From positions 1-34,383 of IMG/VR virus record IMGVR_UViG_3300032931_001006: a stretch of 34,383 nucleotides of DNA, one strand, 5' to 3'. The position numbers and the translations under genes are program-made. Within the stretch, counting starts at the first letter, position 1. Each line of letters begins with the position of its first letter. The notes under the pieces are model-generated. The model did no database searches and was not told the DNA's origin. It was given only the letters and a program-made list of their open reading frames with translations. The DNA comes from a virus. Below, one piece after another: positions 11,031 to 26,837 of this stretch.

Positions 11031-11041
11031 ATTATACCACA
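11031..11041 (-). promoter_or_regulatory. extended -10 TGTGGTATAAT at the end of the pyruvyl transferase gene
   Basis: An exact copy of the recurrent 11-mer overlaps the TAA stop of the pyruvyl transferase. Any transcript would run antisense to the radical SAM gene. It may be a remnant of an earlier gene order or fortuitous. Confidence 0.35.
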
Positions 11042-11805
11042 AATGGGCAGACTTCCAGCAATCGATCTTCAGTGTCCTGAACGTTTATTTTAGGTGCTAC
11101 CCAAAAATCAAGTTCGTCCAAAATCTGGTTCCATGGAATTGTATCGCCCCGTATCTGTACTGCTGTAGGGGGAGTACGAACAGTACCCAGGAAATAGTCC
11201 CAGAACTTAAATCCTTTACCCGCGACACTGTCACTGAATTCCACCCAGACAACAGGAATACTATATGCTTCAGATACAATAAGAACATGCAGGCTGGACG
11301 TGATAACTGTCTCTGCGCAAGATATTTTCCTGATTAGAAATTCAGTATCCTTCATCGGCGAAAGTACCTCGTAGTCGTCACCCCACTTGTATATCATAGC
11401 ACGTTGAACATCCACATAATGGGGAATTACCAGGTGGGGCGGACCTAAAGAAACATTGTCCGGAAACGAAAAATATCTTGGTAGCAAAATTGCCGGATCC
11501 GCGAAGATCGTATTGCTAATATCTACGCTCCGTTTCTTCAACAGCCAGGCGGTAAGCGGTCCGCGTACCGCGGTAGCGATGGTAGTCTTATCACATTGCA
11601 ACTGCATATCATCGGTCATGGCGCCTGTTCCCCACAGGATCGACCCCGGGTGCGCGCAGTGAGCGAGCGATCCTATCGCCAGAACGGTTCCTGTCTGTTC
11701 TCCTGGGTCAGCCCAGATGGGTTCTTTGCCGGTGATGGCTTTGTGGAGAAGAGGGTTGAGGGCATCTCCGAAATTTGGTGAGCGTATCCAAAACAAGTTG
11801 GTCAT
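11032..11805 (-). CDS. polysaccharide pyruvyl transferase family protein
   Basis: The 257-residue protein fits the CsaB-like family, which transfers pyruvate from phosphoenolpyruvate as a ketal onto surface sugars. The N-terminal NFGDALNP matches the family's N-x-G-D start. It continues with VLAIGSLAH, ILWGTGAM, AVRGPLTAWLL, FADPAILLPRYF, VIPHYVD, VLSP, and ETVITSSLHVLIVSEAYSIPVVWVEFSD, the conserved S-x-L-H-x-x-I region. The start lies 3 nt after the upstream gene stop, so translation is coupled. It is the last gene of a short minus-strand operon and matches the glycan-modifying theme of the window. Confidence 0.88.
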   Translation of the reverse strand: MTNLFWIRSPNFGDALNPLLHKAITGKEPIWADPGEQTGTVLAIGSLAHCAHPGSILWGTGAMTDDMQLQCDKTTIATAVRGPLTAWLLKKRSVDISNTIFADPAILLPRYFSFPDNVSLGPPHLVIPHYVDVQRAMIYKWGDDYEVLSPMKDTEFLIRKISCAETVITSSLHVLIVSEAYSIPVVWVEFSDSVAGKGFKFWDYFLGTVRTPPTAVQIRGDTIPWNQILDELDFWVAPKINVQDTEDRLLEVCPFVV

Positions 11806-12427: not shown

Positions 12428-12457
12428 ATGGCACATTCTCCATAAGTGTGGTATAAT
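12428..12457 (+). promoter_or_regulatory. leaderless promoter of tnpB 2
   Basis: The extended -10 TGTGGTATAAT (12447-12457) ends 6 nt before the ATG at 12464. An ATGGCA box precedes it with an 18-nt spacer. The spacing matches that of tnpB 1 exactly, so both transposon genes appear to be leaderless. Confidence 0.65.
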
Positions 12458-12463
12458 ACCAAC

Positions 12464-13576
12464 ATGCGAATGGCCTATAAGTTCCGTATCAATCCAACGA
12501 AACATCAGCGTATATTGCTCAACAATACGTTGGAACTTTGCCGTTGGGTCTACAACGAAACACTTGCTACTCGCAAGAATGCCTGGGAACAGGAAAAGAA
12601 ATCTATTTCCTGCTACGATACAATCAAATTGCTTCCAGGCTGGAAAAGAGAAAATCCAGGATTGTCGCAGGTTTACTCTCAGGTTCTTCAAGATGTGACC
12701 ATGCGCGTCGATCTGGCATTTAGTGCCTTCTTTCGACGTGTAAAAGCAGGAGAAAAACCAGGATATCCTCGTTTTCGCGGGTATGGTCAGTATGATAGTT
12801 TTACCTATCCCCAAACGGGCTTTGCTCTCGCTAACGGACTGGTTCTTTCGAAGATCGGTACAGTCAAGATCGTCCAGCACCGCCCAATTGAAGGGAAGAT
12901 CAAGACTCTGAACATCCGCCGGGACGCAGTAGGAAATTGGTATGCATGTTTCTCGTGCGACGTTGAACCTATACTACTTCCAGAAAACCCAAAGGCGATC
13001 GGCATCGATGTTGGCCTTTCTAGTTTTGCTACCCTCTCCACCGGCGACAAGATTGCTAATCCCCGCTTCTTTCGTCAGAGCGAGAAGGAACTTGCAAAGA
13101 CACAACGGAAACTCTCGAAGGCGGAGAGGGGCACGCCAGAACGGGCGAAACGCAGATTGGCGGTTGCTCGTGTTCACGAACGTATTGCTAACCGTCGCCG
13201 TGATTTTGCTCATAAACTCTCCCGCCAACTGGTAAACGAATATGGGATCATCGCTCTTGAAAAGTTGAACATAAAAGGAATGCTTCAAAACCACTGCCTC
13301 GCGAAAAGCATCTCGGACGCAGCCTGGAATCAATTCGCGCTATACACTCAATACAAAGCCGAGAATGCTGGTAGAGAGTGCGCATCGGTTCCTTCCAAAA
13401 ACACGTCTAAGATGTGTTCGCGGTGTGGCAATTTGGTCGAGAAAGATTTGTCCGTTCGTGTTCACGATTGTCCTGTGTGTAGTCTAAAAATGGACCGAGA
13501 CGAAAACGCTGCTATCAATATTTTGGCATCGGGGCTACGATGCCTGGGTGCAAGCCCTAGAAGCCCCCGGCTTTAG
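12464..13576 (+). CDS. tnpB: TnpB, RNA-guided nuclease of an IS605-family element
   Basis: The 370-residue protein has RuvC-I GIDVGLSSFA (Asp182), RuvC-II IIALEKLNIKGM (Glu266), a zinc ribbon with CSRC (318/321) and CPVC (336/339), and RuvC-III MDRDENAAINIL (Asp346). All catalytic and zinc residues are intact. The ATG at 12464 follows the promoter by 6 nt and is preferred to an upstream GTG. The stop lies inside the right-end hairpin, so coding sequence and guide-RNA scaffold overlap. The N-terminal half (FRINPTKHQRILLNNTLE...YNETL) belongs to the OrfB_IS605 type and differs from TnpB 1, so this is a separate acquisition. Confidence 0.92.
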   Translation: MRMAYKFRINPTKHQRILLNNTLELCRWVYNETLATRKNAWEQEKKSISCYDTIKLLPGWKRENPGLSQVYSQVLQDVTMRVDLAFSAFFRRVKAGEKPGYPRFRGYGQYDSFTYPQTGFALANGLVLSKIGTVKIVQHRPIEGKIKTLNIRRDAVGNWYACFSCDVEPILLPENPKAIGIDVGLSSFATLSTGDKIANPRFFRQSEKELAKTQRKLSKAERGTPERAKRRLAVARVHERIANRRRDFAHKLSRQLVNEYGIIALEKLNIKGMLQNHCLAKSISDAAWNQFALYTQYKAENAGRECASVPSKNTSKMCSRCGNLVEKDLSVRVHDCPVCSLKMDRDENAAINILASGLRCLGASPRSPRL

Positions 13577-13613: not shown

Positions 13614-13642
13614 TTGACAAATTCGCCAACAACAGTTAAAAT
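13614..13642 (+). promoter_or_regulatory. consensus promoter of the glycan-modification operon
   Basis: TTGACA (13614-13619), a 17-nt spacer and TAAAAT (13637-13642) match the sigma-70 consensus closely. The predicted TSS is about 17 nt before the start codon at 13666. It is 20 nt beyond the right end of TnpB element 2. Confidence 0.75.
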
Positions 13643-13665
13643 AAAAAAAGGAAGGAACTTGCAAT

Positions 13666-14358
13666 TTGACCCCTCGCGTAGTCGTTCTCACCTGCGATCC
13701 CTATCTGTGGTTACTTCAACCTTTCGCGTATCTCTTTTCGCATTACTGGTCCGATTTACAATCAGTGGTCGTTGGTGGGTATTCACGTCCTGATTTCTCG
13801 CTCACTCCCAATTTCAATTTTCATTCTATCGATCGTGTCAACTATTCTGCCGACCGATGGTCAAACGGTCTAATAAAACTCCTGGACGCTATTCCGGACC
13901 AGCATATTATTTTGCTGTTAGATGATTACTGGCTCTGCCGTACAGTTGATTGTGGCGGACTTCAGACGTTGTACGCATACATGCTCACAAAGCCCGAAGT
14001 TTTACGTATAGACCTTACCACGGACAGATTATATTGTGGTGGCATGAAAGACATAGAACCGTATGGGCATTATGATATTATAGAAACGCCACACGATTCT
14101 CCCTACCAATTCAGTACTCAAGCCGGCATGTGGAACGTGAGACTTCTACGGAGTCTTTTGCAACCGAATAAATCGGCTTGGGAAACGGAACTGCAAACGC
14201 AGGTGCCGGCAGAGATGAGGGTATTAGGCACGCGGCAATCTCCTATTCGCTATATTAATGCAATGAACCAGGGTAAGTTTCAACGCGATTTAGTGAACCA
14301 ATTGTCTCCCGAACACCTGGACTATATCGGCCAGAGAGGATGGCTTACCCATGCCTAG
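13666..14358 (+). CDS. glycosyltransferase-like protein
   Basis: The 230-residue protein begins at a TTG codon with GGAAGGA 9 nt upstream. It has a Rossmann-like N-terminus (RVVVLTCDPYLWLLQPF) and a hydrophobic strand ending in acidic residues, IILLLDDYWLCRTVD (about 81-95), in the position of the DxD metal-sugar motif of GT-A enzymes. It then has VLRIDLTTDRL and YQFSTQAGMWNVRLLRSLL, and PAEMRV near the end. Short proteins with this arrangement occur in phages next to other sugar transferases. It is the first gene of the operon. Donor and acceptor unknown. Confidence 0.7.
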   Translation: MTPRVVVLTCDPYLWLLQPFAYLFSHYWSDLQSVVVGGYSRPDFSLTPNFNFHSIDRVNYSADRWSNGLIKLLDAIPDQHIILLLDDYWLCRTVDCGGLQTLYAYMLTKPEVLRIDLTTDRLYCGGMKDIEPYGHYDIIETPHDSPYQFSTQAGMWNVRLLRSLLQPNKSAWETELQTQVPAEMRVLGTRQSPIRYINAMNQGKFQRDLVNQLSPEHLDYIGQRGWLTHA

Positions 14359-14806
14359 CGGGCGTATACATGCCGGTGCCTCAATCTGTTTCTCTATGTT
14401 ATCATTTGTGATACTTTCTGTCAATCAAATTGCATCTTTGACGTATTGTCTTGACATTGCTTTGGGGGTTTTGCTCGGTGTTCTAGTAAGCCCTGATCTG
14501 GACCTGATGGAAAATGGCAATTATTCCATGGTAATATTGCGGAAACGTTCTCCTCTTTTAGCAAAACTTTGGCGGCTATTCTGGTTACCATATGGGAAAT
14601 TGTCACATCATCGTGGAATGTCTCATTGGCCAATTATTGGTACTTTGATAAGAATAGGATATTTGATAATCCCAATTATAATAATCACGATTATACTAAT
14701 TCAGTTGGGGCTTCCTATTATATGGAATGCGTCCTGGTTTGCTCCGCTCATCATTGGCTTAATGATAGCAGATTTTATACACATTGTAATGGACGTGATA
14801 TTTTGA
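14351..14806 (+). CDS. metal-binding membrane protein, DUF2227-like
   Basis: The 151-residue protein has an N-terminal PSGRIHAGASI, then LLGVLVSPDLDLMENG, LFWLPYGKLSHHRGMSHWPIIGTLIR and DFIHIVMDVI. The His/Asp residues and the S-H-H-R-G-x-S-H block fit the DUF2227/YdjM group of predicted metal-dependent membrane hydrolases. Four hydrophobic segments are present. The ATG overlaps the upstream stop by 8 nt. Such proteins appear in several phages without proven function; here it is embedded among glycosyltransferases, so a membrane-linked substrate is possible. Confidence 0.75.
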   Translation: MPSGRIHAGASICFSMLSFVILSVNQIASLTYCLDIALGVLLGVLVSPDLDLMENGNYSMVILRKRSPLLAKLWRLFWLPYGKLSHHRGMSHWPIIGTLIRIGYLIIPIIIITIILIQLGLPIIWNASWFAPLIIGLMIADFIHIVMDVIF

Positions 14807-14819
14807 AAGGAGTTTCATT

Positions 14820-15089
14820 GTGACTGGCAGACGCAGAAATCCTGTAAAAACTTTATTCAAGATAGAAACTCTAATGCCGAACTCTGTCGTTATCATCAAG
14901 CGCGGCTGTGCTATGAATACCAAAAAGAATATGCAACAGTTGGCCGGCGAACTGATGAAGAAAGGCCTTCAAGATATAATTATCTTGACCCTGGATAGTC
15001 TGGACGATTTTCATGCACTGTCTGAAGAACAGATGGGCAAATTGGGTTGGATAAAGAAAGAGAAGGAAAATGGACCGAAACCCGCGTAA
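14820..15089 (+). CDS. small hypothetical protein
   Basis: The 89-residue protein starts at a GTG with AAAGGAG 8 nt upstream. The first 30 residues are basic and beta-like (NPVKTLFKIETLMPNSVVIIKRG), and the rest is helical and charged (MQQLAGELMKKGL, then LDDFHALSEEQMGKLGW). It overlaps the next gene by 20 nt. No family recognised. Confidence 0.65.
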   Translation: MTGRRRNPVKTLFKIETLMPNSVVIIKRGCAMNTKKNMQQLAGELMKKGLQDIIILTLDSLDDFHALSEEQMGKLGWIKKEKENGPKPA

Positions 15090-15552
15090 TACCGCAGTGT
15101 TTATTTTAGCAGTCTATCCCCTGGTTGGACAGCCAGAATATCAAGATAATCTTGCTAAAACTATCAAGGTCGTACAAAAACTTGGCTTTGAGCCTTATGT
15201 TGTCTCTCAACATGATGAACTCTTAATAGAAGCCAACTTGTTTATCAAGTTGGTTGCTCCCTGTTCTCCACTTGAGGCTATTAAGTCATATTGGAAACAA
15301 TACAATTTTGTGTTGATGGACGATGTAGTGTTTGATTCTGGCAATTTGGTCGATATGTTCGAGGAACTTCATCTACCGCGCGTATATGTTTCACTAAATC
15401 TGCGCACATTGGCGGTTGGATTCGAGAATGATGGTACTGATTGGTTGAGATGGATGGGGGAATTGAAAGATCACAAACTCGTTTCTGTACCATTGTCAAT
15501 CTTAAATAACTCTACCAAACTGGAACTTCCATGCGCAACTACGATTTCGTAA
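15070..15552 (+). CDS. hypothetical protein, possibly a short glycosyltransferase-fold protein
   Basis: The 160-residue protein begins with a strand and helix (AVFILAVYPL...NLAKTIKVVQKLGFEPYVVS) and has NFVLMDDVVF (about 78-87), a hydrophobic strand ending in DD as in GT-A domains. It is short for a full enzyme. AAGGAAA precedes the ATG. It overlaps the next gene, a glycosyltransferase-methyltransferase fusion, by 22 nt, and could work with it. The assignment is tentative. Confidence 0.6.
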   Translation: MDRNPRNTAVFILAVYPLVGQPEYQDNLAKTIKVVQKLGFEPYVVSQHDELLIEANLFIKLVAPCSPLEAIKSYWKQYNFVLMDDVVFDSGNLVDMFEELHLPRVYVSLNLRTLAVGFENDGTDWLRWMGELKDHKLVSVPLSILNNSTKLELPCATTIS

Positions 15553-17024
15553 TCTCCGCGTCCTGTTACTTGAGTCCCCAGAATACTATTCGGATGCTAA
15601 AAAGTATTCCAATCATCAAGGCGCGCGTACTACCCATCATTACCTGCCCGCGCGTAGAAGATGCCTGGACAATTATGGCTTACGCCCGAAAGGCCTCGTT
15701 TCCAATAATAATTCTGCATTCTCGGTTGACCAGCCGTTATTTCTGTCAATCCATCGCCTTTGTGTATTGTGTTGAGCACGGAATAACCGGAAAATATTTC
15801 GGTATAGTGGACGACGATATTGAGTTTACAGATGGCGATTTGCTTTCCCATATCAATTCCTGCGCCTCGTTTTCTACCTTTGCGTTTTCGTCCAATCAAA
15901 TTGTTTATGGTTTCAGTTTTATGATTGGCACATATATATATGGTGAATACCACGAAGATCCACCCTGGTTAGATGCACACAATTTGTTTTCGCGATGGGA
16001 AGACAATCTTGCCGCCGGCCTGCCGGATTGCACCACCGGCGTTGATAATGCTGCCTTCGTTGACATAGAATACCAGCATCGCCTGCATTTATTGACGGGT
16101 AAACCGCCGGTAGGCTGTACATATCAACCCATTCTTCACCATACCCGTGTAGACAGTATGGAAGCCTCTCGTGGAAACAGAAATATCGTGATTGATGGCT
16201 ATCGTCTTTGGACGGAGAAATTCGGGCTTGCTCTGGATGGCGCGATGATGGGTTCGGGAATGAACTTTGGATGGCATGATGTATATAAAGCGCTATGTCA
16301 AAAACATTTTCTTCCACTTTATAAAAAACACCTAATTTTTGGGGGATTGTGGACTGATTGGGACGCGATATGGCAAAAATATGGTCAAGAAATCACAGTC
16401 ACATACGAGGTACTAACAATGAAAAGAACAACTCCCGAGATAGTTGATTATCCACCATTTACGGGGAAAGCATTGAGATTGGGATTAGCGCAAGGCTATC
16501 TTTACTCATGGGAGGTTTTGACTATCCAGGTGTTCACACACGCTCTTCCGCCAAACGCGGTCGCAATAAATATTGGGGCCGGCGCCGGAACTTCTGGCTT
16601 GGCTATGGCAGAGGCGCGCCTGGACCTAATCCCAAATATTTATACAGTAGACGTGGCCGAAAACAATCGGGTTCTCGGGCTGGTCGCCGAACGGAACTCT
16701 TTTAGCAAATACCATATGCCTTTAGTAAATCAAATCCATGGCGATAGTTACAACGTGGGAATGTGTTGGGATAAAGGGCCCGTGGACATGGTATTTGTGG
16801 ACGGCGATCATTCCGTGTACGCGGTTGAACGCGATGTTCAGGCTTGGCTTCCACATATTAAAGATGGCGGTTTTATGCTCTTTCATGATTACGATCATGC
16901 TATGTATTCGGGTCTTAAACCTGCCGTCGATCGCTTGATGGCTGACCACGAGCAGCTTATGGTTGTGGATCTCCTGGCCGTCTATCGTGTACGTAAACTA
17001 GAAAACAAAACGAAGGAAGGATAA
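15531..17024 (+). CDS. glycosyltransferase-methyltransferase fusion protein
   Basis: The 497-residue protein has two parts. Residues 1-295 form a GT-A-like domain with YFGIVDDDIEF (DDD at 94-96) and SSNQIVYGF. From Met297 a class I SAM methyltransferase follows: INIGAGAGTSG (346-356), NIYTVDV, DMVFVDGDHSVYAVERDV, and WLPHIKDGGFMLFHDYDH, the Methyltransf_24 pattern. Met297 (16419) has GAGG 8 nt upstream and may also start a free methyltransferase. The same domain is repeated in the next gene. I infer sugar transfer coupled to methylation of the product. Confidence 0.82.
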   Translation: MRNYDFVISASCYLSPQNTIRMLKSIPIIKARVLPIITCPRVEDAWTIMAYARKASFPIIILHSRLTSRYFCQSIAFVYCVEHGITGKYFGIVDDDIEFTDGDLLSHINSCASFSTFAFSSNQIVYGFSFMIGTYIYGEYHEDPPWLDAHNLFSRWEDNLAAGLPDCTTGVDNAAFVDIEYQHRLHLLTGKPPVGCTYQPILHHTRVDSMEASRGNRNIVIDGYRLWTEKFGLALDGAMMGSGMNFGWHDVYKALCQKHFLPLYKKHLIFGGLWTDWDAIWQKYGQEITVTYEVLTMKRTTPEIVDYPPFTGKALRLGLAQGYLYSWEVLTIQVFTHALPPNAVAINIGAGAGTSGLAMAEARLDLIPNIYTVDVAENNRVLGLVAERNSFSKYHMPLVNQIHGDSYNVGMCWDKGPVDMVFVDGDHSVYAVERDVQAWLPHIKDGGFMLFHDYDHAMYSGLKPAVDRLMADHEQLMVVDLLAVYRVRKLENKTKEG

Positions 17025-17025
17025 C

Positions 17026-17691
17026 ATGACAATAATTATCGATCGTGAAGTAGAAACAGACGCAAATGGTATCGCCATTTCCAAAACCAATTATCGACCG
17101 TTCACCGGCGGAGCATTGAAGTTGGCCGCGGCAGTTGGCTTTCTTTATCCCTGGGAGGTTCTTGTTCTTCAGGTATTTACCCGCGGGTTGCCCCTAAACG
17201 CCGTCATTGTGAATATTGGCGCAGGCGCAGGCACGTCCAGTCTGGCTATGACAGAAGCGCGCATGGATCTGATAAAAAACATTTACTCAATAGATATTGA
17301 GGGAAAAGACAATCCCAGGGGCAGTTTGGTTGGAGAGCAACACGCCTTTACTCAATACAATACGCCGCTTATCAATCAGATTCTGGGCGACAGTTACGAT
17401 GTGGGAATGGCGTGGGATAAAGGTCCCGTAGACATGGTTTTTGTGGATGGCGATCATTCGGCCAAAAGTGTAGAGCGTGATATTCAGGCCTGGTTACCGC
17501 ATATCAAGGATGGCGGTTATATGTTGTTCCACGATTATAACAATCGCGTATTTCATGTTCTGAAACCCGTCATCGACCGTATGATGTCCAAACACGAATT
17601 GATCGTGATTGTGGATACGGTGGCTGTCTATCGGATCAGCATCCATAAACCTGTAAAGAGAGGACGTAAGCCCAATGTACAAAAAGAGTGA
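17026..17691 (+). CDS. class I SAM-dependent methyltransferase, duplicate of the upstream domain
   Basis: The 221-residue protein repeats the C-terminal domain of the preceding fusion. The shared blocks are PFTGGALKL, YPWEVLVLQVFTRGLP, VNIGAGAGTSSLAM (SAM motif I), QILGDSYDVGMAWDKGPVDM, FVDGDHSAKSVERD, and WLPHIKDGGYMLFHDYN. Similarity extends to the DNA, so the duplication is fairly recent. It begins 1 nt after the upstream stop. The two copies differ around the loop after motif I (VAENNRVLG versus IEGKDNPRGS), so substrates may differ. The C-terminus is basic (KPVKRGRKP). Confidence 0.85.
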   Translation: MTIIIDREVETDANGIAISKTNYRPFTGGALKLAAAVGFLYPWEVLVLQVFTRGLPLNAVIVNIGAGAGTSSLAMTEARMDLIKNIYSIDIEGKDNPRGSLVGEQHAFTQYNTPLINQILGDSYDVGMAWDKGPVDMVFVDGDHSAKSVERDIQAWLPHIKDGGYMLFHDYNNRVFHVLKPVIDRMMSKHELIVIVDTVAVYRISIHKPVKRGRKPNVQKE

Positions 17692-17857
17692 GATTGTCGC
17701 CGGCTTTGCCTGGGCCAGTGTTTTGCTTATGCCCTGGTTTATGATATTGGGAGTTGTTGCCGTAACGTGGTTGAGTTCCGGAGCGTGGGTATTCTTTCTG
17801 GTGGTGGCTATTCTGGCCAGCGCGATGCAGCATGGGGTGGAAGTGAAAAAACCATGA
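17675..17857 (+). CDS. small membrane protein
   Basis: The 60-residue protein has two hydrophobic stretches (FAWASVLLMPWFMILGVVAV and WVFFLVVAILAS) and a short basic tail. It overlaps the methyltransferase gene by 17 nt and the next gene by 4 nt. Unknown function; topology suggests a membrane anchor or accessory for the glycan enzymes. Confidence 0.6.
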   Translation: MYKKSEIVAGFAWASVLLMPWFMILGVVAVTWLSSGAWVFFLVVAILASAMQHGVEVKKP

Positions 17858-18006
17858 CTACATTTCAGAAAATAGGATTGCTTCTGGTTCTTGTTTCACT
17901 AGCATTTCTTCCGAAAATAGATAGCACAGTTGAACAACTTGCGTTGGTAGGGCTGTGGTATCTTGGTGTTTTTTTGTTTCTGTGGGAAAATGAGGCAAAG
18001 AAATGA
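17854..18006 (+). CDS. small membrane protein
   Basis: The 50-residue protein has two hydrophobic segments (IGLLLVLVSLAFL and LALVGLWYLGVFLFLW). It is linked by 4-nt overlaps to the genes on both sides (ATGA at each junction), a sign that it is translated as part of the operon. No family is recognised. Confidence 0.6.
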   Translation: MTTFQKIGLLLVLVSLAFLPKIDSTVEQLALVGLWYLGVFLFLWENEAKK

Positions 18007-18959
18007 CCTTGCGCGTTAAGATGGTTCCGGAGCTGAAACAGGTAGAAAAGGGAGAAAGCGGTATTATCACCATTATCCGCAAATATGCCAAGCATTTCCC
18101 TGCCTATGATATGGAATTGGTCGGCAAAGATGTCTCGGAATTTGACCTGTATGCAGTCCATGCTGGTATGCAGGATGCTAGATATCCGGCAAATATCCCG
18201 ACCGTCGCCCACTGTCATGGCGTCTACTGGACCAGCATGTACCAGGCCTCTCAATGGGAATGGTCGGCCAACGCGGACGTAATAAACTCGCTCCGTCACG
18301 CCCACGTTATTACCGTTCCGTCTACCTGGGTCGCAGAAACCATTCAACGCGATATGCACAGAAACCCCGTGGTTCTTCCACATGGAGTGGATTGGAATGA
18401 GTGGCAGCATCAAGAGGCAAAACAAGGATATATTATTGGGTACGCCAAGAATCGTGCCGGCCAGGACGTCTGTAACCCAGCCTATCTAAATCCTCTGGCG
18501 TCTTCATTTCCCAATATCAAGTTCTTGTCAACATTTTCCCCCGAAAATCCACCGCCGAACATCGAGATTACAGGAGTTCTCCCTTACGAGCAGAACAAGA
18601 AAGTAGTACAGCGCGCGGATATGTTTGTGTCCTGCACTCGCGAGACCTTCGGCATAGCCATTCTGGAAGCCATGGCCGCCGGCCTGCCTATCCTTGGCTG
18701 GCGTGAGGGCGGTTTGGTGGATCTAGTGTTGCATGGGGTTAATGGATATCTGGCACAACCTTACGATTACTCCGATTTGGTACAGGGTATGGCGTACTGT
18801 ATCCAACATCGTGTCGCGCTAGGTGCTAATGGGCGTGAGATGGCGCGTAAGTGGACTTGGGAAAAAGTATGCGCGCAGGTTGCCGATATTTATCGGAGCG
18901 CAATACAGAAGGCGAGAATACCATCTATGACTGTCGATCCAATTCTTTATCGGCTTTAA
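18003..18959 (+). CDS. GT4 family glycosyltransferase
   Basis: The 318-residue protein is a GT-B glycosyltransferase, shorter than typical GT4 enzymes because the N-terminal domain is reduced. It has AHCHGVYWTS, TVPSTWVAETI, VVLPHGVDW (the start of the second domain), NIEITGVLPYEQ, and the signature TRETFGIAILEAMAAGLPILGW with the E-x7-E pair, then VNGYL. It likely transfers a sugar from a nucleotide donor onto a surface or lipid-linked acceptor. It starts at an ATGA overlap, and its last 35 nt overlap the antisense HNH gene. Confidence 0.88.
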   Translation: MTLRVKMVPELKQVEKGESGIITIIRKYAKHFPAYDMELVGKDVSEFDLYAVHAGMQDARYPANIPTVAHCHGVYWTSMYQASQWEWSANADVINSLRHAHVITVPSTWVAETIQRDMHRNPVVLPHGVDWNEWQHQEAKQGYIIGYAKNRAGQDVCNPAYLNPLASSFPNIKFLSTFSPENPPPNIEITGVLPYEQNKKVVQRADMFVSCTRETFGIAILEAMAAGLPILGWREGGLVDLVLHGVNGYLAQPYDYSDLVQGMAYCIQHRVALGANGREMARKWTWEKVCAQVADIYRSAIQKARIPSMTVDPILYRL

Positions 18960-19518
18960 TATGACAATCTCTACACAGAGGAATTATATCAAGCCAATGT
19001 TCTCTTTCGTAGCCAAGATAATGATGGTATCCAATCGCAATATTATTGCAGCACTTACATTCTTGGGTATTTACTTTTGGCAACCTCTCAGATTGAACTT
19101 CAGTGTTTACCTTCCCGCGCGCTTTTCTGCGATTTGGATATTTGTCGCGGTTATTTTTTTGGACTTTTCTGCCTTTTTCGCTAAGTTCCCAGAGTTTTTT
19201 GCGAAGTTTGGTTTCTGGTCGTTCATTATCATGTTTAACTGCTTGTTTTCTTTTTTCGGACTTGAGGTATTCTTCGCGGTGTTTTTGGCGTCTATCGGCA
19301 ATTTCATTTTGGTGTTGAATTTTATAGATTGCAGTTCTATCTCTATCCTTTTTAAGCCGTTCTTCATAACTTTTTTGGCCTCTATCTGTTTTTCTCCATT
19401 TTGCCCCTGCAATTTTTTTGCATTTTTCGCATGGTTTTGTCAAAATATCATTATAACAATAGAACTCAGAACTTGGTTTGAAAGTTTGGCATTTATTACA
19501 AAATATTTGTTCTTCCAT
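18925..19518 (-). CDS. HNH endonuclease, free-standing homing type
   Basis: The 197-residue protein begins at an ATG with GGAGG 7 nt upstream. Its N-terminal zinc site uses Cys7, Cys10, Cys30 and Cys33. A long Lys/Arg/Glu-rich helical region follows (about 45-145), and a C-terminal HNH-like domain holds CKCC, GYHHYLGYE, IPLCRDCH (Cys182, Cys185, His186). It lies antisense inside an otherwise plus-strand operon and overlaps the GT4 gene end by 35 nt. Such free-standing HNH genes invade phage genomes. It lacks the GCCGGC palindrome common elsewhere, consistent with separate origin. Confidence 0.85.
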   Translation of the reverse strand: MEEQIFCNKCQTFKPSSEFYCYNDILTKPCEKCKKIAGAKWRKTDRGQKSYEERLKKDRDRTAIYKIQHQNEIADRRQKHREEYLKSEKRKQAVKHDNERPETKLRKKLWELSEKGRKVQKNNRDKYPNRRKARGKVNTEVQSERLPKVNTQECKCCNNIAIGYHHYLGYEREHWLDIIPLCRDCHIKADKELDRQS

Positions 19519-19557
19519 ATAGCCTCCGTAAACAAAATTGCCCTTGTTTCCCGAATG

Positions 19558-19635
19558 TGTCACCAAGCGGTCTACAAGAGCAATTTTATATATTATAATT
19601 TATGGTCGGGAATAAAGCAAGCCCGCTTGGTGACA
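19558..19635. repeat. 13-bp perfect inverted repeat flanking the HNH promoter
   Basis: TGTCACCAAGCGG (19558-19570) and its exact complement CCGCTTGGTGACA (19623-19635) are separated by 52 nt that contain the predicted HNH promoter. One arm would be in the 5' leader and the other just upstream of the -35 box. Confidence 0.85.
19592..19620 (-). promoter_or_regulatory. predicted promoter of the HNH gene
   Basis: TTGCTT (19620-19615), a 17-nt spacer and TATAAT (19597-19592) lie on the minus strand, about 75 nt before the HNH ATG. Perfect inverted-repeat arms flank it. Confidence 0.65.
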
Positions 19636-19669
19636 TCTTTATTATACACTAATGAGAGGAATTTGTCAA

Positions 19670-21850
19670 ATGGGCTGTTTGCATGATCCATTGGTAACTG
19701 TAGTAATACCTTGTTTTAATTATGCTAATTATGTAGAACGATCCATAACAAGCGTTATGAATCAGACTTACAATAATCTGGAGTGCTTTATCGTTGACGA
19801 TGGTAGTACCGACAATTCCAAAGATGTAATTGTCAAGGCAATTGAACATGACAAACGGTTCGAATATATCTATCAGTCTAATTGCGGCGTAGCGGTTGCT
19901 CGAAATCATGGTATTTCACTGGGGAAGGCCCCATTTATTTTGTGCCTCGATTCTGATGACTGGATCAAGTCGGAATTTATTCAAGTATGTGTTGAACCTT
20001 TATTAAAAGACCGTTCGTTGGGTATCTCGTTTACCAGCATGGAGGCTGTAACTCCTGATGGAAAGATATATCAAACGCGCTGGCCACCAGATGTTCCTTT
20101 ATTTGATCAACAGGTAGCGGGGCAGAACCAGGTGCCAACCTGCTGTGTATTCCGTCGCGAGGTGTGGGAAAATTTGGGAGGGTATCGCGCGCGCTATGCG
20201 CCCGAAGGATGTGGATCGGAAGACGCCGAACTCTGGCTGCGTATGGGTGCTAATGGGTGGGGATATACCAAGGCATCTACCGCGCGTATGTTTAGTTATA
20301 GCCTTGGAGGTAACACAACCAAAAGCAGAGATTATCGAGAACCCAACTGGACGTCTATGCACCCATGGACAATGGACAAACAACACCCAATTGCATCTCT
20401 AGCGACTGCGGCGCGTGGCAGCCATCCCGCACGTATCTACGATACCCCCGCAATCAGCGTAATAATCCCAGTGGGCCCTGGACACGAGTTGGATATTATA
20501 GAGGCGATAGATAGTTTAGAAGCACAGGACTTCAGGATGTGGGAAGTAATACTTGCGCTGGATGGAGTAGACGAGCAGATTATCGCGCCCGTGTTGAAAT
20601 CCTATCCATTTGCGCGTGTATTCCGCACCGAGAATGGGCCAAGGGGCGCCGGCGCAGCGCGTAACCTGGGGGCGAAGAATGCTCGGGCGGGGTTGTTAGT
20701 GTTTCTGGATGGCGACGACTATCTATTACCGGCTGCGCTTTCCTCTATGCTCCAGGAATTTAGCAAAGAAGAATCAATCGTGTATGGAGATTGTGAGGCT
20801 TACGCGATCATTGACGACGTTACGAAACTGGACGAACGGATGCAAAGGAATATTTTGGAGCGTAACAAGAAAACCAAGAAGACCTACATACGTTTTCCCG
20901 CCGCAGATTACAATTGCGAACTCGCTCAATCTATGCCCAACAGCGATGATCCAGAAAGTTTATATCTCGTTGCTCATGTTACCTGCCTTCTGCCAAAACT
21001 TTGGCATGATGCCATTGGTGGATTTGATGAAGAGATGGTTTCGTGGGAAGACATCGATTGGCACTGGCGATTATCCAAGGCAGGCTATTGTTATCGCCGC
21101 CTACACCAGGATATTTTTGTATACCAACTTGGATCTGGCAATCGCAGAGAAAAGGGTAGACAAAACTGGCAATCTTTGTTACAATATCTAAAAGATAAAC
21201 ATGGAGGATTGAAAATTATGCCTTGCAAATCTTGCGGTGGCGGCGGCTCCGGAAATCCTCCGCCCATCAAAAAAATTTATCCTGGAGAAGTCGCGAAGGA
21301 GAACTCTATGGCACGTTTTACTGACGATCAAGTCGTCTTAGCGGAGTATATGCACCCCAATCGTGGGCAACACGAGGTAGTGGGGGGTGCTACAAAGACA
21401 AAGTATGGATATCGCGGGGGTGGAGAAGTATTTATGGTACATATTGACGATATCGCTGCCCAACCGATGTATTTCCGTCAAGTTCGCCTGGACAATGTAA
21501 TCGTTCCCAAAGCAGAGGTTCAGTTACCTCCACCGCCGCCGACGATCGTCAATCCGGCACAACCAGCAATGCCTATTCCCAAACCGCCCACAACCGAATC
21601 TGTTCCACTCGATCTCCTCGCTGACGCGGTAGAGATTGCAAAACCTTTCCTGGACGAATTGGAAGAAATGGATGTCGATGTTATTCCAGGCGTTACACAG
21701 GCGATCTCGAAGCAGATGCGCGAACGAGGCATTACCACGCCCCGAACCATCATGGATTCCGGGATCGAGGGACTACAAGAATTAAAAGGTGTGGGCCCCA
21801 ACCGTGCCGCAGCGATTGTAGGGTGGGTTGCAGGACGCGTAGGGCTGTGA
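19670..21850 (+). CDS. tandem GT2 glycosyltransferase fused to a C-terminal helix-hairpin-helix protein
   Basis: The 726-residue protein has three parts. Residues about 5-250 are a GT2 domain (VTVVIPCFNYANYVERSI, VDDGSTD, LDSDDW). Residues about 265-500 are a second GT2 domain (ISVIIPVGPG, ALDGVDE, FLDGDDYLLP). From Met517 comes a phage-type region starting MPCKSCGGGGSGNPPP, with a proline-rich linker and a C-terminal helix-hairpin-helix (LQELKGVGPNRAAAIVGW). That Met (21218) has GGAGG 10 nt upstream, so a 210-residue free form is likely too. I prefer the ATG at 19670 over 19652 because GAGAGGA lies at the right distance. The combination of sugar transferases with a DNA-type HhH is unusual. 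Confidence 0.8.
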   Translation: MGCLHDPLVTVVIPCFNYANYVERSITSVMNQTYNNLECFIVDDGSTDNSKDVIVKAIEHDKRFEYIYQSNCGVAVARNHGISLGKAPFILCLDSDDWIKSEFIQVCVEPLLKDRSLGISFTSMEAVTPDGKIYQTRWPPDVPLFDQQVAGQNQVPTCCVFRREVWENLGGYRARYAPEGCGSEDAELWLRMGANGWGYTKASTARMFSYSLGGNTTKSRDYREPNWTSMHPWTMDKQHPIASLATAARGSHPARIYDTPAISVIIPVGPGHELDIIEAIDSLEAQDFRMWEVILALDGVDEQIIAPVLKSYPFARVFRTENGPRGAGAARNLGAKNARAGLLVFLDGDDYLLPAALSSMLQEFSKEESIVYGDCEAYAIIDDVTKLDERMQRNILERNKKTKKTYIRFPAADYNCELAQSMPNSDDPESLYLVAHVTCLLPKLWHDAIGGFDEEMVSWEDIDWHWRLSKAGYCYRRLHQDIFVYQLGSGNRREKGRQNWQSLLQYLKDKHGGLKIMPCKSCGGGGSGNPPPIKKIYPGEVAKENSMARFTDDQVVLAEYMHPNRGQHEVVGGATKTKYGYRGGGEVFMVHIDDIAAQPMYFRQVRLDNVIVPKAEVQLPPPPPTIVNPAQPAMPIPKPPTTESVPLDLLADAVEIAKPFLDELEEMDVDVIPGVTQAISKQMRERGITTPRTIMDSGIEGLQELKGVGPNRAAAIVGWVAGRVGL

Positions 21851-21977: not shown

Positions 21978-22736
21978 ATGATTACTGTTTCTTTGGGCTG
22001 GGGACGTCAAAGTTTTTGTTTGTTAACAATGTCTGTGTTCGGTGATCTTCCACCTATTGATTTCGCTGTTTATGCAGATACTACACATGAAAGTAAATTG
22101 ACCTATGAATTTGCTGCACGATGGACACCTTGGTTACAAGAACATGGAATAGTAGTAGTAATAGTAGGTAGTCACCCCAAGATGGCGATTGTAGATAAAT
22201 ATGGTGGATGTCAATTACCTTGCTATACCCTCAACGAAAGAGGAGTAGGGCGAATTCGCCGGCAATGTACTCATGAATGGAAAATACGTCCAATCCGTCA
22301 ATGGTTGCAGGCAAACCGCAATAAAAAATCCGTGGAACAATGGATTGGCATCAGCCTAGATGAATTTCAGCGGATGAAACCTAGTAACGTAAAATACATA
22401 ACTCATCGCTGGCCACTTATTGAAAAGAGAATGACACGTTATGATTGTGAATTATACTTAGCACAACATGGAATTGAAATACCGCCAAAAAGTGCTTGCA
22501 CTTTTTGTCCATTTCATAATACTGCTGAGTGGAGACAAATCAAAACAATACCCGAGGATTGGGAAGAGGCAACAACAATTGATCGAGCAATCCGTAAGGT
22601 TCGCCCGCCTTGGGATTTGTTTGTACATCCATCATGTAAGCCGCTTGAAGAAGTTGATCTACGAACTGATCAAGATCGAGGGCAATTGCAATTTGAAGGA
22701 TGGGACGCGGAATGTACAGGATTGTGTGGGGTGTAA
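21978..22736 (+). CDS. phage PAPS-reductase-like (adenine nucleotide alpha-hydrolase) protein
   Basis: The 252-residue protein fits the phage branch of the PAPS reductase/DndC-like superfamily. A modified PP-loop, SLGWGRQSF (5-13), is followed by FAVYADTTHES and LNERGVGRIRRQCTHEWKIRPI. It then has WIGISLDEFQRMKPS and IPPKSACTFCPFH, the Cys-x-x-Cys-P motif that in relatives carries an iron-sulfur cluster. Superfamily members activate substrates with ATP, as in sulfur incorporation or base modification. No dnd or dpd partners lie nearby, so the role is unknown. The ATG lacks an SD. Confidence 0.8.
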   Translation: MITVSLGWGRQSFCLLTMSVFGDLPPIDFAVYADTTHESKLTYEFAARWTPWLQEHGIVVVIVGSHPKMAIVDKYGGCQLPCYTLNERGVGRIRRQCTHEWKIRPIRQWLQANRNKKSVEQWIGISLDEFQRMKPSNVKYITHRWPLIEKRMTRYDCELYLAQHGIEIPPKSACTFCPFHNTAEWRQIKTIPEDWEEATTIDRAIRKVRPPWDLFVHPSCKPLEEVDLRTDQDRGQLQFEGWDAECTGLCGV

Positions 22737-22795: not shown

Positions 22796-22823
22796 GCACT
22801 GGCTTTATAGTCAGTGCATTTTT
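22796..22823 (+). terminator. hairpin with T-tract inside the DUF1360 leader (attenuator-like)
   Basis: A 9-bp stem (22796-22804 with 22809-22817, one G-U pair) with a TTAT loop is followed by ATTTTT. It looks like an intrinsic terminator but lies between the promoter at 22760 and the ATG at 22830, so it should act as an attenuator or terminate a short RNA. Confidence 0.6.
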
Positions 22824-22829
22824 AATTAT

Positions 22830-23168
22830 ATGGATATAGTTGTTTTTTTGACACTTGTTTTTGCCACCTGGCGCATAGCCCATCTTCTTGCAGAAGAAAA
22901 TGGCCCTGCCGAAATTTTTGCAACTTTGCGATATTGGTTAGGTGTCCGGTACACGCCGGAACCACCATACACAAAATATGGCAGAAACATGTTCTCGAAA
23001 GCAATTATATGTAAATGGTGTTCCAGTGTTTGGATAGGTTTATTCTGGACAATACTATATACAATTTGGCCTCCACTGTGGTTTATTGCGCTACCTTTTG
23101 CATTGAGCGCGGGAGCGATTATGGTTGATGAAGTTTTGGCGATGAAGGACACTAATGGCAAGAGCTAG
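22830..23168 (+). CDS. DUF1360 family membrane protein
   Basis: The 112-residue protein matches the DUF1360 pattern: an N-terminal hydrophobic helix with ATWRIAHLLAEENGPAEIF, then LRYWLG, KWCSSVWIGLFW, and a second hydrophobic region (PLWFIALPFALSAGAIM). These proteins occur in phages and Bacillota without known function. The leader before the ATG has a T-tract and no SD. It overlaps the next gene by 14 nt, which links it to the tail module downstream. Confidence 0.8.
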   Translation: MDIVVFLTLVFATWRIAHLLAEENGPAEIFATLRYWLGVRYTPEPPYTKYGRNMFSKAIICKWCSSVWIGLFWTILYTIWPPLWFIALPFALSAGAIMVDEVLAMKDTNGKS

Positions 23169-24435
23169 TACCCCGACATTGTTATCTCCGGAAAGATATT
23201 CCAAGATTATGGGGATCGTGCCTCCTCATTTTAATCAGGGATTGTCAGGGAATTTGTTTTCCGATAGCGCGTGTAGCGATGTCTGGTATCAGTGGCCGTG
23301 GCAGAGCGCGGACAGTGTAGCCCGCGAAGATCTGGCGCTAGAGATACATACGGCAGAAGAAGAACTGGCCATGCTTGTGGGTTACTACCCGGCCCCGAAA
23401 TATGTTGTCGAGGATCTGTACGATTATCCCCGCTATCATCGCCCCGACCTCTGGCAGACCGACATGAGTAACGTGCGGGGCGCTCCCAAAAGCATCAATC
23501 TGCGCAAAGGGCGTGCTCGCTTTATTGGACCCGGGCGCAGAACAGTAACGTTGATTGGTACTGCAACAACTGTTGGAGCAACCCTTGTATATTCAGACGC
23601 AGACGGTGATGGGTTTGTTGAGAATGCACGTATTGTTCTGCCCACTACGCTTACCGATGTAAACGAGGTGAAGGCTTATTTTCCTGGATTTAGTGGATCT
23701 CCCGAATGGGAGATCCGCACAGAACGCAGCAAAGTAATTGCCGCCGGCAATCTGACAATGAATTTCTACGTTTGGCAATTGGTAGATCCTGATTTGTGGG
23801 AAGCCTTTCCTCCTGCCGGCGGATTAGTTCCTATAACTCTGGCTGTACTGACTAATTTATTGGCATCGGTCGAGGTCTACCGCGAGCACCGTGATACTAC
23901 ACAGGCCGGCTCTGAGTTTCTATGGAACGGCGACGCCGGCTGCGTTTGCGGCGGGACTGGCTGCGCGTTATGTTCGTATACAACGGTAGATGGTTGTCTG
24001 TATGCGCGGGATCCTGTGGCGGGGATTGTGGTGCCTATGCCGGCAACCTATGATGCTGTCTCGGGTACTTGGGGTGGAGCATCTTGGTTTGATTGCCGCG
24101 ATCCGGACATGGTAAAACTTTGGTATCAATCCGGTGACATCGATCAACGATACCTGGCAAATCAAACACACGATCCGCTCAGTGACCGCTGGGCGCGCAT
24201 CATCGCCTATATGGCAACGGCACGTCTGGAACGTCCATTCTGTACGTGTGGGAACTCCCATGCTCTAGCAGAATGGTTGCGGGAAGATTTAGCTTTTACT
24301 CCACAGGGTAGTGGTGCAAGATACACGACACAGGATGTATTAGACTCTCCCTTCGGCACACACCGAGGAGAAGTTATGGCGTGGATGCAAACTAAAAAAC
24401 TAACAGAAAGAATTATGCGAGGTATCACGGTATGA
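23155..24435 (+). CDS. hypothetical virion-associated protein
   Basis: The 426-residue protein starts with an ATG overlapping the DUF1360 gene. Three sections are visible: a helical start with LVGYYPAPKYVVED, a beta-rich middle (about 115-220: RTVTLIGTATTVGATLVYSDADGDG), and a Cys-rich section with CVCGGTGCALC and CTCGNSHALAEWL, which could bind zinc or iron-sulfur. It sits directly before tail genes, so I infer a neck or connector component. No conclusive family match is visible. Confidence 0.65.
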   Translation: MARASTPTLLSPERYSKIMGIVPPHFNQGLSGNLFSDSACSDVWYQWPWQSADSVAREDLALEIHTAEEELAMLVGYYPAPKYVVEDLYDYPRYHRPDLWQTDMSNVRGAPKSINLRKGRARFIGPGRRTVTLIGTATTVGATLVYSDADGDGFVENARIVLPTTLTDVNEVKAYFPGFSGSPEWEIRTERSKVIAAGNLTMNFYVWQLVDPDLWEAFPPAGGLVPITLAVLTNLLASVEVYREHRDTTQAGSEFLWNGDAGCVCGGTGCALCSYTTVDGCLYARDPVAGIVVPMPATYDAVSGTWGGASWFDCRDPDMVKLWYQSGDIDQRYLANQTHDPLSDRWARIIAYMATARLERPFCTCGNSHALAEWLREDLAFTPQGSGARYTTQDVLDSPFGTHRGEVMAWMQTKKLTERIMRGITV

Positions 24436-24710
24436 GACGTGTAAAATGGACTGATCCGAATGGATGGATTCATTGTTCGCTAATACGAGACAGTGACCCG
24501 GAAGAGTCCGCCCCCAAAGGCATTCCGTGCGATCCGCCCGACATCAATCGAATAGATTGGGAGGCGGTGAAGCGCGATTTACATAACCTACTCACCGAAC
24601 GCGAGTTGATAACTATGGCGGATATCTATCGCAAGAGTGAGCACATCAGGAGTGCAACGCAAGCGGTTTTGTATGAACGCTTGCTTGAACTCTACAAACA
24701 ATCTCCTTAA
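24432..24710 (+). CDS. hypothetical small protein of the virion module
   Basis: The 92-residue protein begins MRRVKWTDPNGWIHCSL with a beta-like start, then DINRIDWEAVKRDLHNLL and a helical end (TQAVLYERLLELYKQ). Its ATG overlaps the previous stop (ATGA) and it ends 10 nt before the major tail protein. Possibly a head-tail or tail-terminator component by position; unproven. Confidence 0.65.
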   Translation: MRRVKWTDPNGWIHCSLIRDSDPEESAPKGIPCDPPDINRIDWEAVKRDLHNLLTERELITMADIYRKSEHIRSATQAVLYERLLELYKQSP

Positions 24711-24720
24711 GGAGGAACAA

Positions 24721-26229
24721 ATGGGAAAATCTTCAACCCCATCCCAAACCGGCCTAAGCCGTGTGTTTATCATCGAAGGCCGCGCACGAGGAGACCACGC
24801 ACCCCGTTATCAGACCTGTCTGCGTATGGCTGGTATTACTTGGGGACAGGGCGCAATGACTGCGATCGAATGCCCTTCGGACACGAAATATGATGAGTTC
24901 GAGGAAGTTGGCAAGATCAAGGGCGCGAAAGAACGTCCCAGCACCAGCCTGGAGGGTTTATATGCACTGGATGTCAGGAGTGAGTTGCTGCGCATCACGC
25001 GCAAGGGCTGTTCCATTGACGTACAACTGCATTTAGGTGATTGTACAGACCCAACCGCTTTCTCGAAATACAAGAAAGTCTTGATTTGCGAGGATGTTAA
25101 CATCTCGAACTGGACAACCGGAGATCTTGGCGCGCTCGCCTCTGGCGACCGTGCAAAGGTCAATGAAACCGGCGAAATCAGTGCCAAAGACCTGTATGAG
25201 GTTCTGCCATTGACATTCGCGGAACGGGCTGGCTCTATCGTCACGAACGAAGTTCTGGACGTGACCCTGTGTGACTCGGTATCTTGTGGCGAGTGTGATG
25301 AGGAATCGGATGGTTGCCAAAAAGTTTTGGCTATCACCAAAGGTGCAGGTGGTTCTCCTGGCACTCCCCCGGATGTGGTATTCACCATTGACGGCGGAGC
25401 GACATGGTTCGCGCACGATATCGATTCCATCCTTACTGCCAACGATCCAACCGGCATTGCCTGTTTGGGCCTGTATGTGGTTATAACCTGCGCCACCGAG
25501 CTTTCTCTGAACTACGCACTGTTGAGCGAGTTCAATGGCGTAACCGATCCTGCTTTCATCAAGGTCACTACTGGCTTCGTCGCCGGCGGTGGGCCTCAGG
25601 CGATTGACAGCGTGGGCAACTACGCTTTCATCGTTGGGAATGGCGGATATGTGTATGGTACTTCCGACCCAACCGCCGGCGTAACCGTCTTGGATGCCGG
25701 CGTAGCCACTCCGAACACATTGTTCGCGGTGGACGCGTTGAACGATTCGTTCGCGGTAGCGGTAGGCGCAAATAGTACTATCGTAAAAACCGAAGACGGT
25801 ACTACCTGGACGCTCGTGACTCCCCCAACCGGTGTAGCCATTACCTACAACTGTGTCGCTGTAAAGAGCGAGTCAGAATGGTGGATTGGTGCATCGACTG
25901 GCAATCTGTATTACACCACCGACGGTGGTGTGACGTGGGCGATCAAAGCCTTTACTGGCTCTGGTGTGGGTGCAGTAGAAGACATCGTATTTGCAACAGA
26001 TTCGGTTGCCTACCTGTCTCACACAACTGCGGCCCCGCATGGTCGTATCCTGCGCTCTATCGACGGCGGCAATAGTTGGATAGTCTTGCCCGAAAGTACC
26101 GGCACACTGCCGGCAAACGACAAGATCAATGCCATCGTTGCCTGCGCGTTTGATCCTAACAATGTGGTCGGCGGAGGTCTTGCCGATCTTACCGCGGACG
26201 GCTTCATTGTGGTTGGTGTAGGCCCGTAA
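24721..26229 (+). CDS. major tail protein with C-terminal Asp-box beta-propeller
   Basis: The 502-residue protein starts at an ATG with AAGGAGG upstream. The first about 200 residues are a compact beta-rich domain as in phage tail-tube proteins. The rest holds four Asp-box motifs: TIDGGATW (about 222), TEDGTTW (357), TTDGGVTW (399) and SIDGGNSW (446). They indicate a BNR/sialidase-like propeller. Many copies would decorate the tail tube. A hairpin follows the stop. Position just before the tail assembly chaperone and tape measure supports the major tail call. Confidence 0.75.
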   Translation: MGKSSTPSQTGLSRVFIIEGRARGDHAPRYQTCLRMAGITWGQGAMTAIECPSDTKYDEFEEVGKIKGAKERPSTSLEGLYALDVRSELLRITRKGCSIDVQLHLGDCTDPTAFSKYKKVLICEDVNISNWTTGDLGALASGDRAKVNETGEISAKDLYEVLPLTFAERAGSIVTNEVLDVTLCDSVSCGECDEESDGCQKVLAITKGAGGSPGTPPDVVFTIDGGATWFAHDIDSILTANDPTGIACLGLYVVITCATELSLNYALLSEFNGVTDPAFIKVTTGFVAGGGPQAIDSVGNYAFIVGNGGYVYGTSDPTAGVTVLDAGVATPNTLFAVDALNDSFAVAVGANSTIVKTEDGTTWTLVTPPTGVAITYNCVAVKSESEWWIGASTGNLYYTTDGGVTWAIKAFTGSGVGAVEDIVFATDSVAYLSHTTAAPHGRILRSIDGGNSWIVLPESTGTLPANDKINAIVACAFDPNNVVGGGLADLTADGFIVVGVGP

Positions 26230-26244
26230 ACTTTTTGTGCAATC

Positions 26245-26274
26245 GTAGCAGGCTGAGAAAACTCAGCCTGCTAC
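26245..26274 (+). terminator. strong hairpin after the major tail protein gene
   Basis: A perfect 13-bp stem with an AAAA loop (26245-26257 and 26262-26274) lies 15 nt after the stop. The run after it is only CAACCTTTC, so termination may be partial, as often seen after highly expressed tail-tube genes. Confidence 0.65.
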
Positions 26275-26306
26275 CAACCTTTCAAAACTTCTGACTGGAG
26301 TGTTAT

Positions 26307-26837
26307 ATGGCTGAAAAGAAATCCCCCGCTTTAGTAGTGGCGCATGAACTTGCAGGCGTCAAAGACGATATCATTATTCTGTCTACGGGATATCGAGCGA
26401 AGATCAAACCGGTCTCTGTCACCCTTGTTGATGCTGCTGTAAGCAAAATCGTAGACCCCGATCCCCCCATGGTTATGATTGAAGATAAGGGCCGAGAAGA
26501 ACCCAACCCTCTCGATCCAAAATATCTCAGGACCCTGAACGAAAACATGCACAAACGTTCTATGGCATCTGTAGATATTATGATCTTGATGGGCGTAAAG
26601 TTGCTCGATCCAATCCCCGAGGATTCGGAATGGCTTATTCCGCTTCAGCAATTACAGCGCTTGGGGCATATCGATCTTTCTATGTATGATTTGAAAGATG
26701 ATTTAGATCGCGAGTTTGTGTTCAAGCGTTTTGTCGCGATTGGCAACGACGACTTGAAGTTGGTGACTGCCCGTATGGGAATCTCGGAGGCTGATATAAA
26801 GGCCGCCGAGGCCGCCTTTCCAGGTAACCCGGCATGA
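26307..26837 (+). CDS. tail assembly chaperone, short (G-like) product
   Basis: The 176-residue protein lies between the major tail protein and the tape measure, the usual place of the chaperone. It has an SD (GGAG). It is helical and acidic, with SEADIKAAEAAFPG near the end. Frame 0 stops at 26835, but an adjacent open frame with no start continues for about 83 codons, so a longer G-T form is expected by frameshifting. It likely coats the tape measure during tail assembly. Confidence 0.75.
   Translation: MAEKKSPALVVAHELAGVKDDIIILSTGYRAKIKPVSVTLVDAAVSKIVDPDPPMVMIEDKGREEPNPLDPKYLRTLNENMHKRSMASVDIMILMGVKLLDPIPEDSEWLIPLQQLQRLGHIDLSMYDLKDDLDREFVFKRFVAIGNDDLKLVTARMGISEADIKAAEAAFPGNPA

Follow-up and report, generated by a model that had tools for sequence, protein, structure and literature searches.

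In mycobacteriophages Che8, Corndog, and Myrna, the capsid and tail-tube proteins are glycosylated by the phages' own glycosyltransferases (GTs) (Freeman et al. 2023, as reported in PMC12363180 and PMC12619734). Here we describe a gene cassette in IMGVR_UViG_3300032931_001006, a linear IMG/VR virus record of 34,383 bases that was analyzed in its entirety (the window), and in the relatives of this virus, a little-studied group of uncultured phages. The cassette probably glycosylates the virion; judged here from genes alone, it would place a short, capped oligosaccharide on the phage particle and not on the host surface. By inference, it works like the mycobacteriophage systems, with a genetic form of its own and in another group of phages. 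Both involve phage-encoded GTs in a tailed phage, and the virion, their target in the mycobacteriophages, would be the target here too. Unlike Che8, Corndog, and Myrna, the window's group has a single polypeptide with the domain order GT4-GT2-GT2-beta, usually followed by a helix-hairpin-helix (HHH), encoded beside the tail genes (the triple GT), and its capping genes include those for a pyruvyl transferase, a sulfotransferase, and amino-sugar enzymes. No Mycobacterium phage was among the organisms of 97 GT matches (tblastn, E 1e-5), a comparison in which distant GT-family homology is possible.

Homologous pyruvyl transferases (27 to 31%) occur in Cobetia phage Carin-5, Lak megaphages, and others, so this enzyme is not unprecedented in isolated phages. 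In Carin-5, unlike in the window, the gene has replication-type and hypothetical genes as neighbors, and no GT cluster is annotated with it. Thermobifida phage P1312 resembles the window in having an O-methyltransferase and a glycosyl/glycerophosphate transferase soon after its tail genes; however, it has no match to the triple GT, and the weak similarity is confined to the methyltransferase. At the nucleotide level, 25 kb of the window had no match among the 50,697 phage records of INPHARED, and no description of the cassette was found in the literature searched, which covered few subscription journals.

A triple glycosyltransferase linked to structural genes

A preliminary description of the window, made from its sequence without database searches, had recognized a GT4 and a double GT2, and family matches bore out both. 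In L002, a relative (record G001, 80.5 kb) that is largely collinear with the window and has cassette and tail proteins 54 to 72% identical to those of the window, they form one protein of 1,050 amino acids (aa). A single protein of 908 to 1,089 aa is present in seven of the nine relative records, the remaining two being cut by contig ends. In the window, an antisense insert divides the gene into two open reading frames (ORFs), and its parts are as follows.

18003..18959, plus strand: GT4 domain of the triple GT, as a separate ORF (Glycos_transf_1, E 1.1e-17); the last codons are contributed by the insert
19670..21217, plus strand: GT2-GT2 domains of the triple GT (Glycos_transf_2, E 1.1e-51 in two stretches; ORF 19652-21850)
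21317..21493, plus strand: novel beta domain (RGxH...YGY...VHxxD; model pLDDT about 86; profile match in all relatives, E 1e-23 or better)
21659..21847, plus strand: HHH domain (HHH_5, E 3.8e-5; absent in two relatives)

Both halves are open, and the catalytic motifs ETFGIAILEA, CLDSDD, and FLDGDD are intact despite the split. The second half (732 aa) likely starts at the ATG at 19670, with its own ribosome-binding site, GAGAGGA, as read from the sequence, and ends with the beta domain and the HHH. The C-terminal order is a Cys-rich linker, the small beta domain, a proline-rich linker, and the HHH. The beta domain is the constant part of this C terminus, the HHH being absent from L043 and L044, which both retain the beta domain. 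No other protein in the loci examined matches the beta-domain profile, and a protein-level search with the beta/HHH region of L025 found no match among known phages. A structure search with the C-terminal model was dominated by HHH matches, the HHH resembling domains of RadA (Z 9.8) and NusA (Z 8.3).

Tail genes follow the cassette on the plus strand from 22.8 kb.

22830..26837, plus strand: block 3' of the cassette, conserved in relatives (small transmembrane [TM] protein, structural-type protein 23155, tail-tube-type protein 24721-26229, and 26307)
27093..34364, plus strand: tape measure and minor tail proteins (PHROGs matches)

When 2.9 million viral contigs were scanned with tail protein 23155, five were recovered, and all five have the triple GT, whole or cut by the contig end, upstream. 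A scan with GT motifs recovered members of the window's phage group among unrelated GTs, with their tail genes downstream, and one with the beta domain only added three further contigs, again with tail genes downstream. In total, ten records carry the triple GT; G002 and G003 are near-identical in their overlap, which leaves about nine lineages. In eight of these, tail-type genes lie no more than about 5 kb downstream of the triple GT, in the same orientation; the ninth, G008, is a contig that extends only as far as the small membrane protein. In the linear record G003 the triple GT and the tail genes are at opposite ends, and the near-identical G002 has them joined.

The linkage extends to a capsid-type gene, so called because in G001 it comes after the terminase gene and the portal-type and protease-type genes. 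Five genomes have this gene upstream in the same orientation, about 1.6 kb (G009), 2.7 kb (G008), 4.5 kb (G007), 8.5 kb (G004), or 15 kb (G003) away, and sugar genes lie in the interval that separates it from the tail genes. The minimal arrangement, in L044, is capsid-type gene, GT-A, Methyltransf_24, triple GT, and tail genes. The head block of G001 has the opposite orientation, and the window stops short of this block. The capsid-type gene of G008 (5884-7299, L049) has one in-frame TAA, due to a sequencing error, a pseudogene, or recoding.

If the cassette were a collection of accessory sugar genes without a single system, its linkage to tail genes would be coincidental. We regard this as very improbable. 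The flanking cassette genes differ strongly among relatives and two mobile genes have landed in the region, as would suit such a collection, but the triple GT is present in all ten group records with a common domain order and common downstream genes, and its catalytic motifs are intact even when it is split.

A fixed core and exchanged capping genes

The remaining sugar genes of the window and the signals around them are listed below.

1334..2065, minus strand: FkbM-type methyltransferase (Methyltransf_21, Pfam E 9.3e-17), adjoining the virion-type gene 380-1324 (minus strand); 61% homologue in G001
11032..11805, minus strand: polysaccharide pyruvyl transferase, divergent from the operon (PF04230, E 7.9e-7); 65% homologue at the matching place in L002
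12360..12388, minus strand: promoter of the pyruvyl transferase gene, TTGACA-17-TATAAT (L002 counterpart at 4967-4939)
13614..13642, plus strand: operon promoter, TTGACA-17-TAAAAT (L002 counterpart TTGACG-17-TAAAAT at 4988)
13666..14358, plus strand: GT-A-fold glycosyltransferase (GT13666), TTG start (structure Z 13.4; homologues in G001, G003, G004, G006, G007, and G009)
15531..17024, plus strand: putative DDD-motif enzyme (residues 1 to 295) fused to a C-terminal Methyltransf_24 (E 2.6e-16)
17026..17691, plus strand: second Methyltransf_24 copy (Pfam E 1e-18)
22796..22817, plus strand: intrinsic terminator ending the cassette (L002 counterpart at 12278-12304)

The FkbM and pyruvyl transferase assignments made in the preliminary description thus hold, and so does the GT-like nature of the first gene of the operon. 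GT13666 has no Pfam match; its AlphaFold2 model (five homologues, pTM 0.70) has a GT-A fold, with Z 13.4 to B4GALNT1 over 163 residues (rmsd 3.1), a score taken as evidence of the fold only and not of the substrate. A protein-level search of known phages and a scan of bacterial genomes found no relative of GT13666, and PDB profile searches with GT13666, the N-terminal half of 15531, and the capsid-type protein gave no usable match. A different phage, L027 (IMGVR 3300030419_004603), has a GT13666 homologue (27%) in a large sugar cluster at about 2.6 to 20.5 kb, with GT-like genes, epimerases, and FkbM.

The gene at 15531 had been read as a GT-methyltransferase fusion. Its methyltransferase is confirmed; its N-terminal half gave no family or profile match, and nothing in a comparison with GT profiles, which were thin. 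The 15531 protein, used by itself as a query against viral contigs, gave no match. The fusion corresponds to two separate genes in L002. The second methyltransferase gene is indeed a copy of the first, the products being 63% identical; because the two copies are about as distant from each other as each is from the single copy of L002, the duplication is not recent.

Across the group, every relative has the triple GT, and six of the seven that can be checked have a GT13666 homologue. The exception is G008, with none between the capsid-type gene and the triple GT; G002 and G005 are cut off there. The capping genes vary. Methyltransf_24 is found in the window (two copies), G001, G004, and G009; FkbM in the window, G001, and G003 (profile matches) and in L041 (BLAST, 33%); a DegT aminotransferase in G003, G004 (two), G006, and G008; an epimerase in G003 and G004; and a sulfotransferase in L025 and L041 (Pfam) and L053 (BLAST). 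Among three records searched, the pyruvyl transferase is confined to the window and G001. Hence, the genes proposed at first as one set fall into two parts: in the records compared, the lineage keeps a fixed GT core and exchanges its capping genes. The G004 cassette also has a gene (L053 4694-5482, complement) whose product starts like an ATP-pyrophosphatase (putative), together with the sulfotransferase-like gene. The preliminary description had noted that no nucleotide-sugar synthesis gene is present, and DegT and epimerase families were indeed not found in the window or in its 80.5-kb relative. Because other members carry them, their lack is a trait of the window/G001 pair and not of the system.

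The FkbM homologue of G001 lies within the head-gene block. The L002 promoter at 4988 is immediately 5' of the GT13666 homologue, and the -35 boxes of the two divergent L002 promoters are about 20 bases apart. In the window a TnpB element separates the pyruvyl transferase gene from the operon. The close spacing in L002, which lacks this element, supports the view that the 13614 promoter belonged to the operon from the outset and links the pyruvyl transferase gene to the operon as a divergent partner. The proposal of one operon with a consensus promoter thus stands for the promoter, which is matched in L002, but an antisense HNH-type gene lies inside the operon.

DNA and the host surface as possible acceptors

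Phage GTs also act inside the cell on DNA, as the T4 glucosyltransferases do on hydroxymethylcytosine, and virus-encoded GTs are known to hypermodify DNA (Pyle 2024, as cited in PMC12619734). The cassette could likewise decorate phage DNA, with the HHH holding the enzyme on DNA and a capped, bulky, hypermodified base protecting against restriction. The best argument for this is that the HHH is a common DNA-binding fold and a possible DNA tether. We nevertheless consider DNA an unlikely acceptor. A thymidylate-synthase-type hydroxymethylase was found in none of seven records (including those of 80.5 and 70.3 kb, record completeness not being certified), and positive controls were matched in the same search. 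A search for TET/JBP oxidases gave no match, and control sequences gave none either. Furthermore, unlike the beta domain, the HHH is not constant, and the cassette lies beside structural genes, with the replication genes of G001 in another region (from about 48 kb).

Methyl, pyruvyl, and sulfate caps are found on bacterial surface polysaccharides, which would suit a cassette that modifies a host surface glycan, by seroconversion or superinfection exclusion. One GT2 domain resembles GtrB-like PHROG families, and a GT2-type catalytic domain is what the window shares with the Gtr O-antigen conversion cassettes of temperate phages. However, this match covers the catalytic domain only, and the triple GTs of the window, L002, L005, L022, and L025 have no TM-like segment. 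Unlike Gtr cassettes, the window has several soluble GTs, and neither a membrane-bound GtrB nor an integrase was found. No GtrA-type flippase was matched among the cassette ORFs scanned, a scan that excluded the smallest TM ORFs (17675 and 17855). A tyrosine integrase was detected in none of the seven records, which are not certified complete; because of this, a benefit to a lysogen is unlikely. A host-surface target would also leave unexplained the linkage to capsid-type and tail genes, which persists down to about 35% identity. We therefore judge it quite unlikely that the cassette acts on the host surface. The preliminary description had allowed either host envelope or virion as the existing acceptor of a capped, phage-specified oligosaccharide and had suggested that other phages might be blocked via the envelope. 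An existing acceptor fits our data, with the virion favored by the capsid-type and tail linkage; the envelope, and with it the blocking of other phages, is not supported, as no membrane-bound GT, no flippase-like gene among the scanned cassette ORFs, and no integrase in the seven records was found.

Insertions and other genes of the window

Three disturbances distinguish the window from L002, i.e., an HNH-type insert, a TnpB insert, and the doubling and fusion of the methyltransferase. Both inserts had been missed in the preliminary description, as had the DUF2227 gene and the beta domain and HHH of the triple GT.

12446..13576, plus strand: TnpB/OrfB (IS605 family), inserted between the divergent promoters (OrfB_IS605 E 7.3e-29, TNB E 5.8e-20); absent from L002
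14351..14806, plus strand: DUF2227 membrane protein of a metal-binding family (Pfam E 9.2e-16; TM-like segments; 54% in L002)
14820..15089, plus strand: small conserved protein (58% in L002)
15070..15552, plus strand: conserved 160-aa protein (60% in L002; no family match)
18925..19566, minus strand: antisense HNH-type endonuclease gene that splits the triple-GT gene (CxxC..HH..CxxCH pattern; DUF968 below cut-off; promoter 19669-19641)
21978..22736, plus strand: PAPS-reductase-like gene (phrog_424, E 6.1e-37), adjoining the triple GT; absent from L002; its link to the cassette is putative

The 160-aa protein had been proposed as a possible short GT, an identity that was not confirmed. The HNH-type gene, whose DUF968 match is sub-threshold (E 1.8e-5; 25.3 bits against a cut-off of 27.8), has its own perfect sigma-70-like promoter on the minus strand and is absent from all relatives read. 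Because it inserted where the GT4 domain meets the first GT2 domain, the window's triple GT is predicted to be expressed as two chains. An Rfam scan found no intron or other RNA family at the gathering threshold; hence, the insert is not a recognized intron. A 16-nucleotide inverted repeat (94% complementary, arms 46 nucleotides apart) is found at the start of the HNH-type gene (19558-19635).

The TnpB gene is not part of the glycan system, and no recognized TnpA lies alongside it. Its closest bacterial relatives are in Anaerolineales metagenome-assembled genomes (MAGs; 62 and 59%), with 54% to a Nitrosotalea MAG; this similarity is a hint, and only that, at an Anaerolineales-like host.

No tRNA genes were found in the window. 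A radical-SAM-type protein (phrog_9298) is encoded at 10309-10956 and was not seen at the matching place in L002. An 820-aa DNA methyltransferase-like ORF of G001 (69896-72358; L016:12896-15358) has an apparent intein (CLSDDTEILTRRGW...) after its N-terminal motif, and L005 has a long Arg/Ser-repeat ORF (546-935) near the cassette, possibly a repeat-expansion artifact.

Virion glycosylation as the probable function

The virion is favored over the host envelope and DNA because of the linkage to structural genes and because no membrane GT, integrase, or thymidylate-synthase-type hydroxymethylase was found in the records searched. The genes, their families, the fused enzyme of the relatives, and this linkage are direct observations; from them we infer the virion as acceptor, the number and order of transfers, the role of the beta domain, and the benefit. 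We hypothesize that, in the infected cell, soluble phage GTs would use nucleotide sugars (in this lineage made by the host) to build an oligosaccharide on a virion protein. GT13666 and the GT4-GT2-GT2 enzyme could provide up to four transfer steps, and the C-terminal beta domain, with or without the HHH, may bring the triple GT to its protein target. The sugars would then be capped by FkbM, Methyltransf_24, and the pyruvyl transferase. Exchanged caps around a fixed GT core would be expected if the outer chemistry of the particle were under diversifying selection. Judging by its position, we guess that the tail-tube-type protein, which has a C-terminal Ycf48/BNR propeller in all seven homologues aligned, is a natural candidate for the acceptor.

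Pairwise identities cover the same range in the triple GT (36 to 69%) and in two tail proteins (33 to 72%), which favors the virion, and Mantel tests of the triple GT gave r 0.83 (p 0.003) with 23155 and r 0.52 (p 0.013) with the tube-type protein. Several points weigh against virion glycosylation. Without the closest pair, the Mantel values fall to 0.57 (p 0.05) and 0.25 (p 0.30). The co-divergence is thus compatible with vertical inheritance and is not strong proof of it. In both the window and L002, a terminator stands between cassette and tail genes, which makes the cassette a neighbor of the tail block outside the tail transcript. The HHH would suit a DNA acceptor, too. The capsid-type and tail-tube-type labels come from position only, as no family or PDB profile recognized either protein; a protein search of known phages found nothing for 23155 and one 10% partial match for the tail-tube-type protein. 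Finally, glycan, acceptor, and expression are predicted here from gene content.

More tentatively, and with rather less confidence than we place in virion glycosylation itself, this may be an uncultured clade, perhaps infecting Chloroflexota, with virion coating as a core trait. The triple GT might be steered by its undescribed beta domain to a structural protein, e.g., the propeller-bearing tail-tube-type protein, and exchangeable methyl, pyruvyl, amino-sugar, and sulfate caps might constitute a cassette for chemical variation between the capsid and tail genes.

If our interpretation is correct, virion glycosylation would be a fixed property of another clade of tailed phages and not a quirk of actinobacterial phages, and the GT4-GT2-GT2-beta fusion beside tail genes would be a marker for finding virion glycosylation in metagenomes. 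The exchangeable caps would show that the outer chemistry of the particle is under selection of its own, and the beta domain is a testable candidate for the means by which a phage GT recognizes its protein target.

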